From positions 1 to 54,681 of the forward strand of contig JACPTK010000009.1 in assembly GCA_016192825.1 (NCBI GenBank): 54,681 nt of DNA. The letters are read 5' to 3'. The translations under genes were made by a program, and so were the position numbers. Of this stretch, positions 10,969 through 15,825 are shown in pieces. Under the pieces are notes generated by a model. That model was given only the letters and a program-made list of their open reading frames with translations, was not told the DNA's origin and made no database searches. This DNA is from Betaproteobacteria bacterium. Its GTDB lineage: Bacteria; Pseudomonadota; Gammaproteobacteria; Burkholderiales; SG8-41. The first letter of the stretch is position 1, and each line of letters starts with the position of its first letter.

Positions 10969-11991
10969 CTATCGGCGCCCGCCGATGCGCCGCGTCTGCG
11001 GCATGCCCGCGCCGATGTAGACGTCCTGCGGTCCCGGGCCGCCCGCGACGGCGAGGTAGATTTCGTCCGGGCTGCGCGCGCGCCATACGGTGTCCGCGTC
11101 GCCGCGGCCCGCCGCGATCTCCGTGCGCGCGAAGTCCGGCGCGAAATACGAGACCGGGAGCCGCGCGAGCTCCCACAGCCGCTGCTGGATGTCGCGCTTG
11201 CCGAGACCGACCTCGGCGAGCGAGCGGGCATGATTGACGCCGAGGAGGAGGAGCACGCCGTCGCCGCCGCCGTACATCGGCGGCATGTTGGTCGCGATCT
11301 GGCGCAGGATTTCCTCGGGGCCGACGCCCTCGCCCCCCGAGATATTGCAAAAGTTGGAGGCCTTGAACACCGTCACGGCGCTGTCCCCGCGCGCGCAGCC
11401 GCGCCCGGCGTGAAAGGGCTCCCACGGGCTCTCCTCCTCGTTCTCGCCGCAGATATAGGAGTACCGCAGCGGCGATCCGAAGCTGACCTTCGAGTACACT
11501 CCCGGCAGCGCGCCGCCCACGTTGATCATGATGAGCCGGATCGCGCGGCCGATGGTGGAATTCGCCCGCCAGCCGGGGCCGAGGCAGCCGGTGCCGGAAT
11601 TGATCTCGAGCCCGCGCCGCACCGGGCCGTTCACCAGCAGGAACGGCGTCATGGGATTGGTGGTGACCTGCATGAACTCGAGCGGATAGCTCGGATCGAG
11701 CATGCCCTCGACCGCCGCGATGATGACCGGCATGTATTCCGCGCGGCACCCCGCCATGACGGCGTTCACCGCGAGGGCCTCCACCGTCGCGCGCCCCTTG
11801 CGCGGCGGCAGATGCCCGATCACCTCGCCGGCGGCGCGCCCCGATGCAGCCACGAATCGCTGCACCGCTTCCGGGGTCGCCGGGATGATCGGCAGGCCGT
11901 CTGTCCATCCCTGCTCGTAGGCGTGCTCGTATGCGCGCGAGATGAGATCGGCGGCCGAATCCGCTGCGAGTTGAACTTCTGCTTGCGGCAT
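10969..11991 (-). CDS. Conserved protein of unknown function, partner of the UGSC selenoprotein
   Basis: A 340-aa soluble protein with no signal peptide or TM segment. Recognisable conserved stretches are EQGWTDGLPIIPATPEAVQR, NAVMAGCRAEYMPVIIAAVE, TTNPMTPFLLVNGP and NSGTGCLGPGWRANSTIGR. From memory, proteins with this TDGLPxxPPT signature are often encoded next to UGSC-type proteins, but I know of no assigned reaction. Two conserved Cys residues (in AGCRAE and GTGCLG) could be redox-active or bind metal. The gene starts 13 bp after the UGSC stop codon with a good Shine-Dalgarno (AAGGAGCAGGAAATG), so the two are co-expressed and may form a complex. Confidence 0.75.
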   Translation of the reverse strand: MPQAEVQLAADSAADLISRAYEHAYEQGWTDGLPIIPATPEAVQRFVAASGRAAGEVIGHLPPRKGRATVEALAVNAVMAGCRAEYMPVIIAAVEGMLDPSYPLEFMQVTTNPMTPFLLVNGPVRRGLEINSGTGCLGPGWRANSTIGRAIRLIMINVGGALPGVYSKVSFGSPLRYSYICGENEEESPWEPFHAGRGCARGDSAVTVFKASNFCNISGGEGVGPEEILRQIATNMPPMYGGGDGVLLLLGVNHARSLAEVGLGKRDIQQRLWELARLPVSYFAPDFARTEIAAGRGDADTVWRARSPDEIYLAVAGGPGPQDVYIGAGMPQTRRIGGRR

Positions 11992-12004
11992 TTCCTGCTC
12001 CTTT

Positions 12005-12661
12005 TCAGACCGGCGTTGCGGCGCGCACGACGCCCGCCGGCCGGATCTGCTCCTCGGCCACGCCGCGCAGGCGGCGCTCGAGCTCCCCGGGCGGGAGCGT
12101 GAGCCCGTCGATGACCGTGCCGATCATCGCCTCCGCGCGCACCCGCAGTGCCGCCTCGTCGAGCTGGCGGATGGGGTTAGGCGTCTCCGCGATGGTCACG
12201 TAGGGGCAGCCCTGCGTGGACGACATGCGGCGCCCGAAGCGGGAAAAGGTGTCCGTCACGATCATCACCGTCGGGATGCCGCGGGACTCCAGGGCGGGCG
12301 TGACGTGGCTACACCACGTCGTGCAGGACCCTCAGTCGCCGGTCGCGGTGATCGCCACATCGACGCGCTGCGCAAAACCATCGAGCAACTCGCGCATCGT
12401 GTCGAGCAGCTTCCCGGTGCGGATCGGCAGCTCCCGGACGGGCTGCTCCAGCACCACTGCCTTCAGCCTGTAGCGCTCCTCGAGCAGCGCGCCGACCGAC
12501 TTCAGGATGTGGACCGCCGACGGCCGCCAGTTGGGCAGCAGGCCCAGCACCTTGCCGTCGAGGGTCGCCGGCCGCGGCGCGAGCGTGCTGCCGGAATTCG
12601 CGCCGTCCAGGTACATGGGAAGCGGTGAGAGCATCGTCAAGCTGAGCGGGGTCCGGGCCAT
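12005..12661 (-). CDS. UGSC-family selenoprotein (in-frame TGA read as selenocysteine)
   Basis: Two open frames in the same phase are separated by a single TGA (12332-12334). Reading it as selenocysteine gives a continuous 218-aa protein whose centre is ITATGD-U-GSCTTWCSH, with Sec110 in the literal U-G-S-C motif that names this family. The UGSC family was defined in metagenomic selenoproteome surveys and resembles thiol/selenol redox motifs of the UxxC kind, but its function is unknown. A perfect 7-bp stem-loop follows the TGA at bacterial SECIS spacing. The start at 12661 is preferred for its AGGAG at suitable spacing; an in-frame ATG at 12706 would add 15 residues. A TGA-naive annotation would split or lose this gene. 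Confidence 0.85.
12302..12331 (-). promoter_or_regulatory. Candidate bacterial SECIS element of the UGSC gene
   Basis: On the coding strand the TGA is followed by 11 nt, then GACGTGG-TGTAG-CCACGTC, a perfect 7-bp stem with a 5-nt loop (12302-12320). The loop G is 20 nt after the TGA, within the spacing known for SelB-dependent bacterial SECIS hairpins (about 16-37 nt, with a G among the first loop bases). Confidence 0.75.
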
Positions 12662-12814
12662 GATTTCGATCTCCTGGGTTGCGACTTCGGATGAAAAGAC
12701 GCTCATTTTGCCTCGCCGACCGCGGAAGGGAAAGCGTGGCGTCCGGGAATCCGGCTGTGCCGCTCTTTTGTGCTAGGATTTTCCCCGGTAGACTTGCCGC
12801 CAAGGAGGGCGCCC

Positions 12815-13249
12815 ATGAAGTTCGAGGGATTTCTGCATCTGAATATCCGCTGCTCGAAGGAGGACCTGCCGGCGATCGAGAAATTCTACGGCGAAGTGCT
12901 GGGACTCAAGCCGGGTTACCGGCCCAACTTCAAGTTCGGCGGGCTCTGGCTCTATGACGGCGAGGATCCGATCATTCACGTCGGCGCGCGCTTCCCCAAG
13001 GGCTCCTTCGTCAAGGACAAGCACAGCGGCAGCGTGGATCACATCGCGTTCAAGGCCTCCGGCGCGGCGGACTTCCGCAAGCGGCTGAAGAAGCTCGCCA
13101 TCGCGTTCGAGGAGCAGAACATCGAGAACGCCGGCTACCAGGTTTTCCTCTACGACCCGGTCGGCACCAAGCTCGAATTCAACTTCCTCAACGAGCGCGT
13201 TCCGGACGCGGTGCCGCTCGGCACCACCGCCGGCGCTAACCTACGCTAG
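12815..13249 (+). CDS. VOC-superfamily (glyoxalase/dioxygenase fold) protein
   Basis: A 144-aa single-domain vicinal oxygen chelate protein with two beta-alpha-beta-beta-beta modules. Likely metal ligands are His8 (FLHLNIRC), the His in VDHIAFKA and the Glu in TKLEFNF. LHLNI, FYGEVLGLKPG and YDPVGTKLEF are typical of the superfamily, which includes glyoxalase I, extradiol dioxygenases and fosfomycin resistance proteins. The exact activity cannot be assigned. A strong Shine-Dalgarno (AAGGAGGG) precedes the ATG at 12815, and a clean terminator follows. It is divergent from the UGSC operon, so the two could share a regulatory region (12662-12814). Confidence 0.88.
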   Translation: MKFEGFLHLNIRCSKEDLPAIEKFYGEVLGLKPGYRPNFKFGGLWLYDGEDPIIHVGARFPKGSFVKDKHSGSVDHIAFKASGAADFRKRLKKLAIAFEEQNIENAGYQVFLYDPVGTKLEFNFLNERVPDAVPLGTTAGANLR

Positions 13250-13423: not shown

Positions 13424-14029
13424 TCACGCAGTGACGCCCTTGCCCCAGCCGCCTTCGAAGAAGCGCTCGGCCAGCGGCTTGCGCCCGCGCGGCCTCAGTT
13501 CCTTGGCCTTCGTTTCCTCGTCCAGGACGTCCGCGCCGGCCTGGTAGCCGACCGCAATCATCGCCATCGGCGTGTACTCGGCCGGGACGTTGAACGCGGC
13601 GCGCGCCTTGTCGGCGTCGAATCCGCCCATCTGGTGATAGGCGAGCCCGAGGGCGGCCGCCTGCAGCGCCATGCTGGTGCTCGCCGCGCCGGTGTCGTGC
13701 TGGGTCCAGCGGTTGGGCTTGCCGGTGGCGGCGAAATTCGAGCCCGCGCAGGACAGCATGAGCAGCGGCACGTTCTTGACCCACTTGCGGTTGTTCTCCG
13801 ACAGGCAGTCGAACGCCTTCTGGAAGCCCTCGGGATCGCGTTTGCGGTCCCAGACGAGATAGCGCCACGGCTCGTCACCGTTGCAGGACGGCGCCCACCG
13901 GCCGGCCTCGAGCAGCGTAATCAGCTGCTCGCGGCTGACGGGCTTCGCCGCGTCGAACGCGCGCGTGCTCCAGCGGCGCGCAAGGAGATCGTGTATGGGA
14001 CGGCTGGTCTGTGCGATTCGGTCTGACAT
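13424..14029 (-). CDS. Nitroreductase-family FMN-dependent oxidoreductase
   Basis: A 201-aa flavin reductase of normal family length. The FMN-binding RRWSTRAFDAAKPVS (about 18-32), the APSCNGDEPWRYLV segment and the AALGLAYHQMGGFD region are typical of the NfnB/NOX superfamily. Members reduce nitro groups, quinones or other electron acceptors with NAD(P)H. The start at 14029 (MSDRIAQTS) is preceded by GGGAG. It lies between the two selenoprotein loci on the same strand, with DoxX upstream, so a role in redox or reactive-compound detoxification is plausible but unproven. Confidence 0.9.
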   Translation of the reverse strand: MSDRIAQTSRPIHDLLARRWSTRAFDAAKPVSREQLITLLEAGRWAPSCNGDEPWRYLVWDRKRDPEGFQKAFDCLSENNRKWVKNVPLLMLSCAGSNFAATGKPNRWTQHDTGAASTSMALQAAALGLAYHQMGGFDADKARAAFNVPAEYTPMAMIAVGYQAGADVLDEETKAKELRPRGRKPLAERFFEGGWGKGVTA

Positions 14030-14092
14030 CGTGCGGCTCCCTCTTCCCGGGTTGTTCGGAATGCGCATTCTACATAACTCGCGGGTAAAGGC

Positions 14093-14120: not shown

Positions 14121-14534
14121 TCAGGATTTGCGGTTATCGACGCTTAAAGGCCCGGCGCCGAACGCCATGACGTAGAGCATCCCGCCCATGATGCAGAGGT
14201 TCTTCATGAACTGGATGGTTTCCATCTGTTTCCCCGCCGTCACCGCCCAGAACGGGTGAAAGATCAGCGTCGTCGGGATCAGGAACAGGAAGATCGCGGT
14301 CGCCGCCCAGCGCGCCTGCCAGCCGATGACGAGCAGGATGCCGCCGACGAGTTCCACCGCGATCGCGCCGGCTGCGGCGAGCTGCGGCAGCGGCAGGCCC
14401 TTGCTGGCGATGTAGCCGACCGTGCCCTCGAAGCCGGCCAGCTTGTTGAAGCCGGAAATCACGAAAATCAGCGCCAGCAGGATGCGGCCGGCCAGCGGCC
14501 CGTACGTCTTCACTGCCTCACACAACGCATTCAT
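14121..14534 (-). CDS. DoxX-family inner-membrane protein
   Basis: A 137-aa protein with four predicted TM helices (about 12-32, 48-70, 75-95 and 108-128). The segments GRILLALIFVISGFNKLAGF and AVELVGGILLVIGWQARWAA are characteristic of DoxX/DoxD. DoxX-type subunits are linked to membrane thiol or quinone redox chemistry in several systems. Translation starts 21 bp after the end of the DedA-rhodanese gene, so it is the second gene of that operon. Neighbouring a rhodanese supports a role in sulfur or thiol redox. Confidence 0.88.
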   Translation of the reverse strand: MNALCEAVKTYGPLAGRILLALIFVISGFNKLAGFEGTVGYIASKGLPLPQLAAAGAIAVELVGGILLVIGWQARWAATAIFLFLIPTTLIFHPFWAVTAGKQMETIQFMKNLCIMGGMLYVMAFGAGPLSVDNRKS

Positions 14535-14555: not shown

Positions 14556-15500
14556 TCACTCCATGGTTTCGAAACCCTCGACCGGCCCGCCCGCCTCGAT
14601 CCACGCCTCGAGCCCGCCGGCGAGCGGCCGCACCTTGCGGAAGCCCTGGTCCATCAGCAGGCGGGCGACACGCGCCGCGCTCGCTTCGTTCGGTCAACTG
14701 CAGTACACCACCACTTCGCGGTCGGTCGCGACAGGGCCGAGATTGCGCGCGGGCGCGTCGATGTTCACGGGGATCGCGCCGGGAATGCGGCGCGGGTCGA
14801 GCTGGCGACCCGTCTCCGAGCGCACGTCGAGTATCACAGGCCGCTCGCCGCTCGCCATCAATTCCTTCAGCTGTCCGACCGTGATCCTCGCTGAGCGCAG
14901 CAGCCGGATGAACATCCAGCGCTCGATCCATTTCACGGCCACGTAGAAAGCGACGACCACCGCGATCGCGGTGAGCGCGCCGGCGCCCAGGTCCCGGAGC
15001 CACGCGAGCGCCCGCTCGACTTCGGCGTGGAACAGCATGCCGGCGGCGATGGCGACACCGGCCCAGAGTGCGGCGCTCACCGCGCTGTAGAACACAAATG
15101 GGCCGAACGGAAGCCGCATCGCCCCGGCGAGCGGCGGCGCCACGGTGGAGAATCCGGGGATGAACTTCGCGAACACCAGCGACGGCGCGCCCCAGCGTTC
15201 GTAGATGCCCTCGGTCTGCTTCACGCACACATCAGGCTCGATGGCGACGCGGCAGAGCGTGCTCAGTATCGGATAGCCGTAGCGGCGCCCGGCGAGGAAC
15301 CAGGGGATGTCGCCCAGCAGCGATCCCACGACCGCCACTACTACAAGCCATGGCAGTGCCAGCTGTCCCTGCTGCACCAGCGCGCCGGCGACGACCAGCA
15401 GCGGCACGGCCGGCACCGGGACGCCGGCCTGGGCAACGAGAACGTTGGCGAAAACGAGCGCGAGCCCGTGCTGCGCCAGCAGGTCGGTCATCTCTTCCAT
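14556..15500 (-). CDS. DedA/VTT membrane protein fused to rhodanese, probable selenoprotein
   Basis: With an in-frame TGA (14694-14696) read as selenocysteine, the gene encodes 314 aa. Residues 1 to about 190 form a DedA (VTT/SNARE-associated) domain with re-entrant and TM helices, including the GDIPWFLAGRRYG and KFIPGFSTVAPPLAGAMRL signatures. Residues about 205-314 form a rhodanese domain with VILDVRSETGRQ, the active-site loop VVVYCS-U-PNEASAARVA (Sec269) and RPLAGGLEAW. Homologues normally read YCSCPNEAS, so the TGA sits exactly at the second Cys, and the frame continues with perfect homology to a TGA at 14556. DoxX follows 21 bp later. Without recoding, the rhodanese domain would be cut at its active site. 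A disabled pseudogene or sequencing error is the main alternative. Confidence 0.8.
14659..14693 (-). promoter_or_regulatory. Possible SECIS hairpin of the DedA-rhodanese gene
   Basis: After the TGA, 15 nt lead to GCGGC-GCGT-GTCGC, a 5-bp stem (one G-U pair) with loop GCGU whose first G is 21 nt from the TGA. The spacing fits a bacterial SECIS, but in DNA this GC-rich such a short stem could arise by chance. Confidence 0.4.
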
Positions 15501-15518
15501 CGCGATTCTCGCTTTCGG

Positions 15519-15825
15519 CTATCAGCTACCAGCTACCAGCTATCAGCTACCAGCTACCAGTTGCCAGCTACCAGCTACCAGCTACCGGCTACCGGCTACC
15601 AGCTACCAGTTGCCAGCTACCAGCTACCAGTTGCCAGCTACCAGCTACCAGTTGCCAGCTACCGGCTACCAGCTACCAGTTGCCAGCTACCGGCTACCAG
15701 CTACCAGCTACCGGCTACCAGCTACCAGCTACCAGCTACCAGCTACCAGCTACCAGCAACTGTCAGACCCGGTGGGAAATTATGGTTCAAGCTCGCGGCT
15801 CGCGGCTGGAAGCTGGCGGCTCAAT
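15519..15825. repeat. Long heptameric array (CTACCAG)n with partial complementary arm
   Basis: About 34 tandem copies of a 7-bp unit (TACCAGC with TATCAGC, TACCGGC and TTGCCAG-type variants) run from 15519 to about 15758. A complementary tail follows (GCGGCTCGCGGCTGGAAGCTGGCGGC, 15793-15821). The tail after GGTTCAAGCT is nearly the same as in the element at 20.5 kb. The array lies between the dioxygenase stop codon and the DedA start, and its last units end about 18 bp before the DedA ATG. Confidence 0.85.

Follow-up and report, generated by a model that had tools for sequence, protein, structure and literature searches.

Fusion gene, in-frame UGA and neighbouring genes

The window, i.e. the whole 54,681-nucleotide stretch of DNA that was analysed, carries on its minus strand a gene in which a DedA (VTT) domain is joined to a rhodanese domain (14556..15500). 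The frame starts at the ATG at 15500 and ends at the terminal TGA at 14556-14558, and translation, Pfam and comparison with relatives characterize it as a predicted selenoprotein gene of 314 residues with selenocysteine (Sec) at residue 269. The frame VVVYCS-TGA-PNEASAARVA, given without a strand in a preliminary description of this DNA, is present here, and a translation check showed that the plus strand of 14556-15500 is not the coding strand of this gene. In the list of open reading frames the gene is shortened to 14694..15500, ending at the internal TGA (codon 269). This TGA, at 14694..14696 of the minus strand and within the predicted motif YCSUPNEAS, aligns with Cys codons of relatives. 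Translated through it, the protein reads VVVYCS-U-PNEASAARVA, followed by RPLAGGLEAW and a natural stop, and protein homology resumes directly after the TGA up to this C-terminus, as had been described. Annotation that ends at the UGA would yield a truncated DedA protein.

Pfam places the VTT/DedA domain at residues 29-155 (52.7 bits against a gathering score of 33.9) and Rhodanese at residues 208-302 (45.7 bits). Because the Rhodanese match spans U269, the TGA lies inside the domain. The Cys-x-Sec pair (YCSU) proposed earlier for the active-site loop of a rhodanese fused to DedA was thus recovered in translation, with both domains recognised by Pfam. Just 5' of the start of the fusion gene, in the place expected for a promoter, about 34 copies of the 7-mer GCTACCA form a tandem repeat (15518-15757).

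The next gene, starting 21 bases past the fusion stop, encodes a DoxX family membrane protein (14121..14534, minus strand; PF07681). After a gap of 52 bases it is followed by a gene for a nitroreductase family protein (13424..14068, minus strand; Pfam), the three being consecutive on one strand. Near 15 other TGA-type loci, relatives of nitroreductase were found at nine, of pirin at seven, of DoxX at five and of the UGSC family at none, and near 11 Cys-type loci nitroreductase was found at two and pirin at four; since the compared loci are 6 to 19 kb long and several are short or located at the end of a contig, the absence of a neighbour is weak evidence. The operon with DoxX that had been suggested is supported in the window by the short gap, but the low number of other TGA-type loci with a DoxX relative does not extend it to the group as a whole.

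A second recoded gene nearby, also reported in the preliminary description, proved to be real and is a predicted selenoprotein gene of the UGSC family (12003..12706, minus strand, with the UGA at 12332-12334; PF24696). Its Pfam score is 133 bits (cut-off 25), and its NCBIfam score is 98 against a cut-off of 125. The predicted SECIS hairpin of this gene, GACGUGG-UGUAG-CCACGUC, is located at 12302..12320 (minus strand), and RNAfold also closes a U-G pair in it, leaving the loop GUA. An open reading frame on the opposite strand (12770-13249) separates the UGSC gene from the fusion and DoxX genes, which makes a shared operon unlikely. The UGSC family (PF24696, NF041046), an already known family of selenoproteins, is unrelated in protein to the fusion, and among the loci compared it is a neighbour in this genome alone. 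A conserved cluster of two selenoprotein genes is rejected, as no UGSC relative was found near the 15 other TGA-type loci, several of them short, and the argument that proximity of two recoded genes speaks against chance is weak. The gene beside the UGSC gene (10969-11991, minus strand) gave no match at 0.001 in either Pfam or NCBIfam.

TGA and Cys versions of the fusion gene and the predicted hairpin after the UGA

Alternation between Cys and TGA among homologues, proposed in the preliminary description together with a way to check it, was examined in 45 DedA-rhodanese genes read from DNA, the gene of the window included. The recoded column holds TGA in 15 of them and Cys in 30. Matches were present in 59 of the 399 genomes of the order that were searched, and 13 of these 59 have an in-frame TGA in the match, 12 in a fusion preserved from end to end and the remaining one in a shortened copy, that of G637. 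A sample of 369 genomes of the class gave four genomes with a match, including the window's own, and the other three matches are stop-free. Among the 33 loci read from the order and class searches, 12 have TGA at the exact column and 21 have Cys, and scanning the contigs of named genomes added 12 loci (three TGA and nine Cys). The three named TGA loci (L067-L069) come from metagenome assemblies of Betaproteobacteria. Among the matches of the order search beyond the loci read letter by letter, those that span the entire fusion are listed without an internal stop.

Within the window's own family, a match at 1e-20 was detected in seven of 12 genomes, all seven with TGA, and five genomes are without a match. 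TGA fusion genes come from separate assemblies that represent three or more families of the order, and the coded TGA rows belong to families f1, f188 and f195. Looking for further standalone TGA rhodaneses among the 369 genomes of the class (1e-14) brought up three fusions and nothing else. Searching plasmids gave 26 records, all below 60% identity to the query and one of them with at least 80% query cover.

A predicted bacterial SECIS hairpin follows the UGA at 14656..14685 (minus strand), as indicated by synonymous freezing, folding and pairing across 17 genes. Its upper stem GGCG/CGCC with the loop CGUGU occupies 14664-14676, and the loop starts at the 22nd base past the UGA. Synonymous conservation was measured by counting identical codons over gene pairs that share the amino acid; three Cys rows with the motif LCAC (L076-L078) were left out of these codon counts, which comprise 42 rows. 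Codons +5 to +12 past the UGA are identical at a level of 0.945 in the 15 TGA genes, the top value of 307 eight-codon windows (median 0.466), whereas the same codons in 27 Cys genes reach 0.373. Similarly, the RNAalifold consensus hairpin is clear, at -12.4 kcal/mol, in the TGA set and almost missing in the Cys set (-0.5 kcal/mol).

Base pairing was followed in 17 TGA genes, i.e. 16 fusions (with the shortened copy of G637) and a standalone TGA rhodanese, L102, of genome G505. All four upper pairs and the CGUGU loop are formed in every one of them, and each of the six lower stem pairs is formed in 15 to 17. The fold had been proposed as a check of the TGA, and the outcome is a conserved hairpin that is rare in Cys genes, where all four upper pairs occur in three of 27 and the CGUGU loop in one of 27. 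The standalone rhodanese keeps the loop while two stem pairs are swapped (18-30 from GC to CG and 21-27 from GC to CG). In bacterial SECIS elements a G is found among the first two bases of the loop, and CGUGU has it in all 17 genes. Single-sequence folds vary among the TGA genes, alternatives with neighbouring loops being predicted for many, and a scan of the window against Rfam at gathering thresholds gave no match. The standalone rhodanese (G505:C13:78000-84000) carries the motif TYCTU.

The TGA might alternatively represent a nonsense mutation or an assembly error, in which case a truncated DedA protein would be made and the rhodanese end would be a remnant. Points in favour are the five same-family genomes without a match, a further TAG at codon 66 of one TGA gene (L029), and the copy in G637 (L064 7854-8381, G637:C76), in which the greater part of the DedA domain is missing while the TGA and the hairpin are kept. 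Together, the TAG and the DedA loss raise the possibility of decay or misassembly in some copies. Degenerative changes in relatives, named in advance as a sign against recoding, are therefore seen in two copies and do not constitute a general rule. Against a nonsense codon stand the recurrence of this TGA in 15 genes that come from different assemblies and several families, the homology that resumes at once and extends to the protein end, and the synonymous freezing downstream of the TGA, absent in Cys genes. With the column shared, the codons frozen and the hairpin formed in all 17 genes, a nonsense mutation or sequencing error is extremely improbable and for practical purposes excluded.

Three changes are required to explain the TGA rows on a tree built from 45 proteins, far below the mean of 12.7 for shuffled labels, and a single TGA clade is mildly rejected (p 0.0275). 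Because hairpins of TGA genes are near-identical, they suggest one origin of the TGA, followed by transfer or by reversion to Cys (e.g. in L020).

Sec decoding genes, protein features and possible function

The search for Sec machinery called for in the preliminary description found all of its components in the window's own genome: tRNA-Sec (76 bits, anticodon TCA), SelB (440 bits, plus Pfam SelB domains), SelA (523 bits) and SelD. Genes for SelA, SelB and tRNA-Sec are located together on one contig of 7.4 kb, in an assembly with 4.96% estimated contamination. Two SelD matches exceed the cut-off (L099, G000:C123, and L100, G000:C20); in one of them a GGUGCK motif contains an in-frame TGA, and the other is a long open frame without TGA. 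A gene for a pyridine nucleotide-disulphide oxidoreductase (L023 5315-6208, G000:C50) is situated between selB and the tRNA-Sec gene.

SelB was present in 12 of 13 TGA genomes, compared with 13 of the 44 genomes whose full-length fusion contains no stop (Fisher p 7e-5, with related rows). This association is confounded with kinship, and a paired test along the tree had too few contrasts to count. The sole TGA genome in which SelB was not found (G509) is 84% complete. In the window's family, SelB was found in all 12 genomes searched.

Judging from these sequence data, the in-frame UGA is almost certainly decoded as selenocysteine. We put at about 0.88 the probability that the gene encodes a functional membrane selenoprotein in which UGA269 is read as Sec. 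In the proposed mechanism, SelB carrying Sec-tRNA(Sec) would bind the SECIS hairpin past UGA269 and the ribosome would insert Sec; continuation of read-through via the rhodanese domain to the natural end is strongly supported by sequence. The DedA/VTT domain would anchor the fusion in the inner membrane, with Cys267 and Sec269 as a putative Cys-x-Sec pair at the rhodanese active-site loop. The prokaryotic selenoproteome would thus gain a membrane-anchored, DedA-fused member.

Residues C83, C92, C267 and C/U269 are invariant in all 41 proteins aligned (41 of 45). The pair C83/C92 is absent from two other DedA matches of the genome (L002 and L003), and present in all four apparently unfused DedA proteins (L117-L120, open frames of 226-241 aa), which weakens it as fusion-specific evidence for a rhodanese relay. 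A structure model of the fusion (mean pLDDT 85, pTM 0.72) shows a helical part, then a rhodanese fold. The best Foldseek rows are mostly named rhodanese-like, such as Alr3790 (3ilm, 3k9r), 1gmx also matched, and no DedA-named structure is among the best 50 rows. As a basic stretch, KWIERWMFIRLLR, follows the last helix, the C-terminal rhodanese probably faces the cytoplasm, a placement drawn from charge only.

Among the template alignments listed, five have a Cys in the loop. Three of these (both domains of 6mxv and domain 2 of 1yt8) place it at position 269, the other two (3nhv and domain 4 of 1yt8) at 267. Cys267 as the plainly canonical catalytic Cys is not supported by this split, and Sec269 may be either the residue that attacks or the partner of that residue. 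The usual rhodanese loop contains Arg. The loop CSUPNEAS is devoid of it, and classical thiosulfate:cyanide activity of the fusion is therefore doubtful.

Rhodanese with CxU is a listed selenoprotein form in the available excerpts of PMC9312934 and PMC13188914, and rhodanese selenoproteins also appear in those of PMC1088965 and PMC2398784. The 'rhodanese-like domain-containing protein form 3' (PMC13188914, excerpt) has the same Cys-x-Sec loop. So does NF041203 (rhodanese_LYCAU, rhodanese-related (seleno)protein), which shares the rhodanese domain with an active-site Cys-x-Sec; its model, however, is a single domain of 126 positions, while the domain described here sits behind DedA and scores 73.1 bits against a cut-off of 115. 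No protein exceeded the NF041203 cut-off in 18 genomes. TsoB (NF045694, rhodanese/DsbD fusion-like selenoprotein) combines, by its name, a rhodanese-like domain with a membrane part, as here, but the model has 572 positions and a cut-off of 805 bits, and the fusion scores 18 bits over residues 258-309.

The same architecture is found in Cys-type fusions, namely proteins annotated as 'DedA family protein/thiosulfate sulfurtransferase GlpE', PA1209 (PMC12893004, in the excerpt available) and members of COG0586, whose rhodanese link is called unclear in the accessible part of a 2023 analysis (PMC10127716). The Cys-type fusions that were read, PA1209 not among them, differ in having Cys at 269 and in that the hairpin is mostly missing, and 29 aligned Cys rows have 39-53% identity to the window's protein along its length. 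A Sec version of DedA-rhodanese was not encountered in the literature searched, the older domain name included, most subscription papers and bioRxiv preprints being outside its coverage, nor in titles and abstract starts among the matches listed for DedA, rhodanese and selenoprotein literature. Thus, the Sec DedA-rhodanese, not described in the literature searched, would place a known Sec motif in a new architecture, both parts being already known.

The membrane device for selenium or sulfur transfer or for thiol redox envisaged in the preliminary description is plausible from the sequence. The most likely reading, which we hold tentatively and at somewhat less than even odds, is that the fusion acts at the membrane as a relay, either for thiol/selenol redox or for sulfane sulfur, and its odds are independent of whether residue 267 or 269 corresponds to the canonical Cys. 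One residue of the pair would take a persulfide or an oxidised thiol, and the pair would resolve as a selenenylsulfide that is reduced by cytosolic thiols. The Sec fusion would do the job of Cys-x-Cys fusions, but faster or with less over-oxidation. Possible membrane partners are DoxX and the conserved DedA pair C83 and C92. A DoxX-SodA-SseA complex exists in mycobacteria and does not enter into this reasoning.

A bolder version, in which Sec269/Cys267 exchange electrons or persulfide sulfur/selenium with C83/C92 and DoxX, and the selenol drives or gates DedA transport of lipids or oxyanions, is decidedly unlikely. If true, it would represent the first DedA-type transporter-like protein under selenocysteine control; to our knowledge, none is known so far.

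Two further explanations retain the selenoprotein and assign it other roles. The DedA part could be an undecaprenyl phosphate (UndP) flippase, with lipid recycling gated by the rhodanese in the role of redox sensor. DedA proteins of COG0586, rhodanese fusions included, are proposed as UndP flippases in the accessible part of PMC10127716, and the DedA part has weak matches to the UptA models of NCBIfam. These scores are far under the cut-offs, however (42 against 250 bits), and the few neighbours looked at include no recognisable gene for a lipid carrier. We consider this role doubtful, though worth keeping in mind. Less probable is a selenium carrier, in which the rhodanese would deliver a precursor to SelD and DedA would aid selenite entry, the protein not being a thiol-redox enzyme. 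The CxU site and the further selenoprotein genes of the genome (UGSC copies and the TGA-containing SelD match) fit such a role, as does a 2005 paper whose title reportedly names a probable connection of DedA to selenite resistance. Yet SelB genomes of the window's family can lack the fusion gene (5/12), and Cys versions are common without SelB (31/44 genomes), which argues that the fusion family does not exist for Sec synthesis.

Whichever function applies, a single membrane protein is available in natural Sec and Cys forms, many of the Cys ones in relatives without detected SelB. This set makes possible a direct test of what Sec adds to rhodanese and what the rhodanese fusion does for DedA.

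UGSC genes among the relatives

We have also addressed the occurrence of UGSC genes in general. Matches at 1e-15 were present in 15 of 24 genomes searched, each with an in-frame TGA, accompanied in two by a TAA. Four matches belong to the window's own genome, namely the gene of the window, two on contig C53 and one on C19. The searched hairpin motif was detected in 19 of 20 UGSC loci, at 20 places, and at a distance from the TGA like that in the fusion gene. Varied stems combined with similar loops across relatives make these hairpins good material for a SECIS model. By eye, the loops are UGUAG, AGUGU or AGUAU, and RNAfold closes some of them further and folds others differently.
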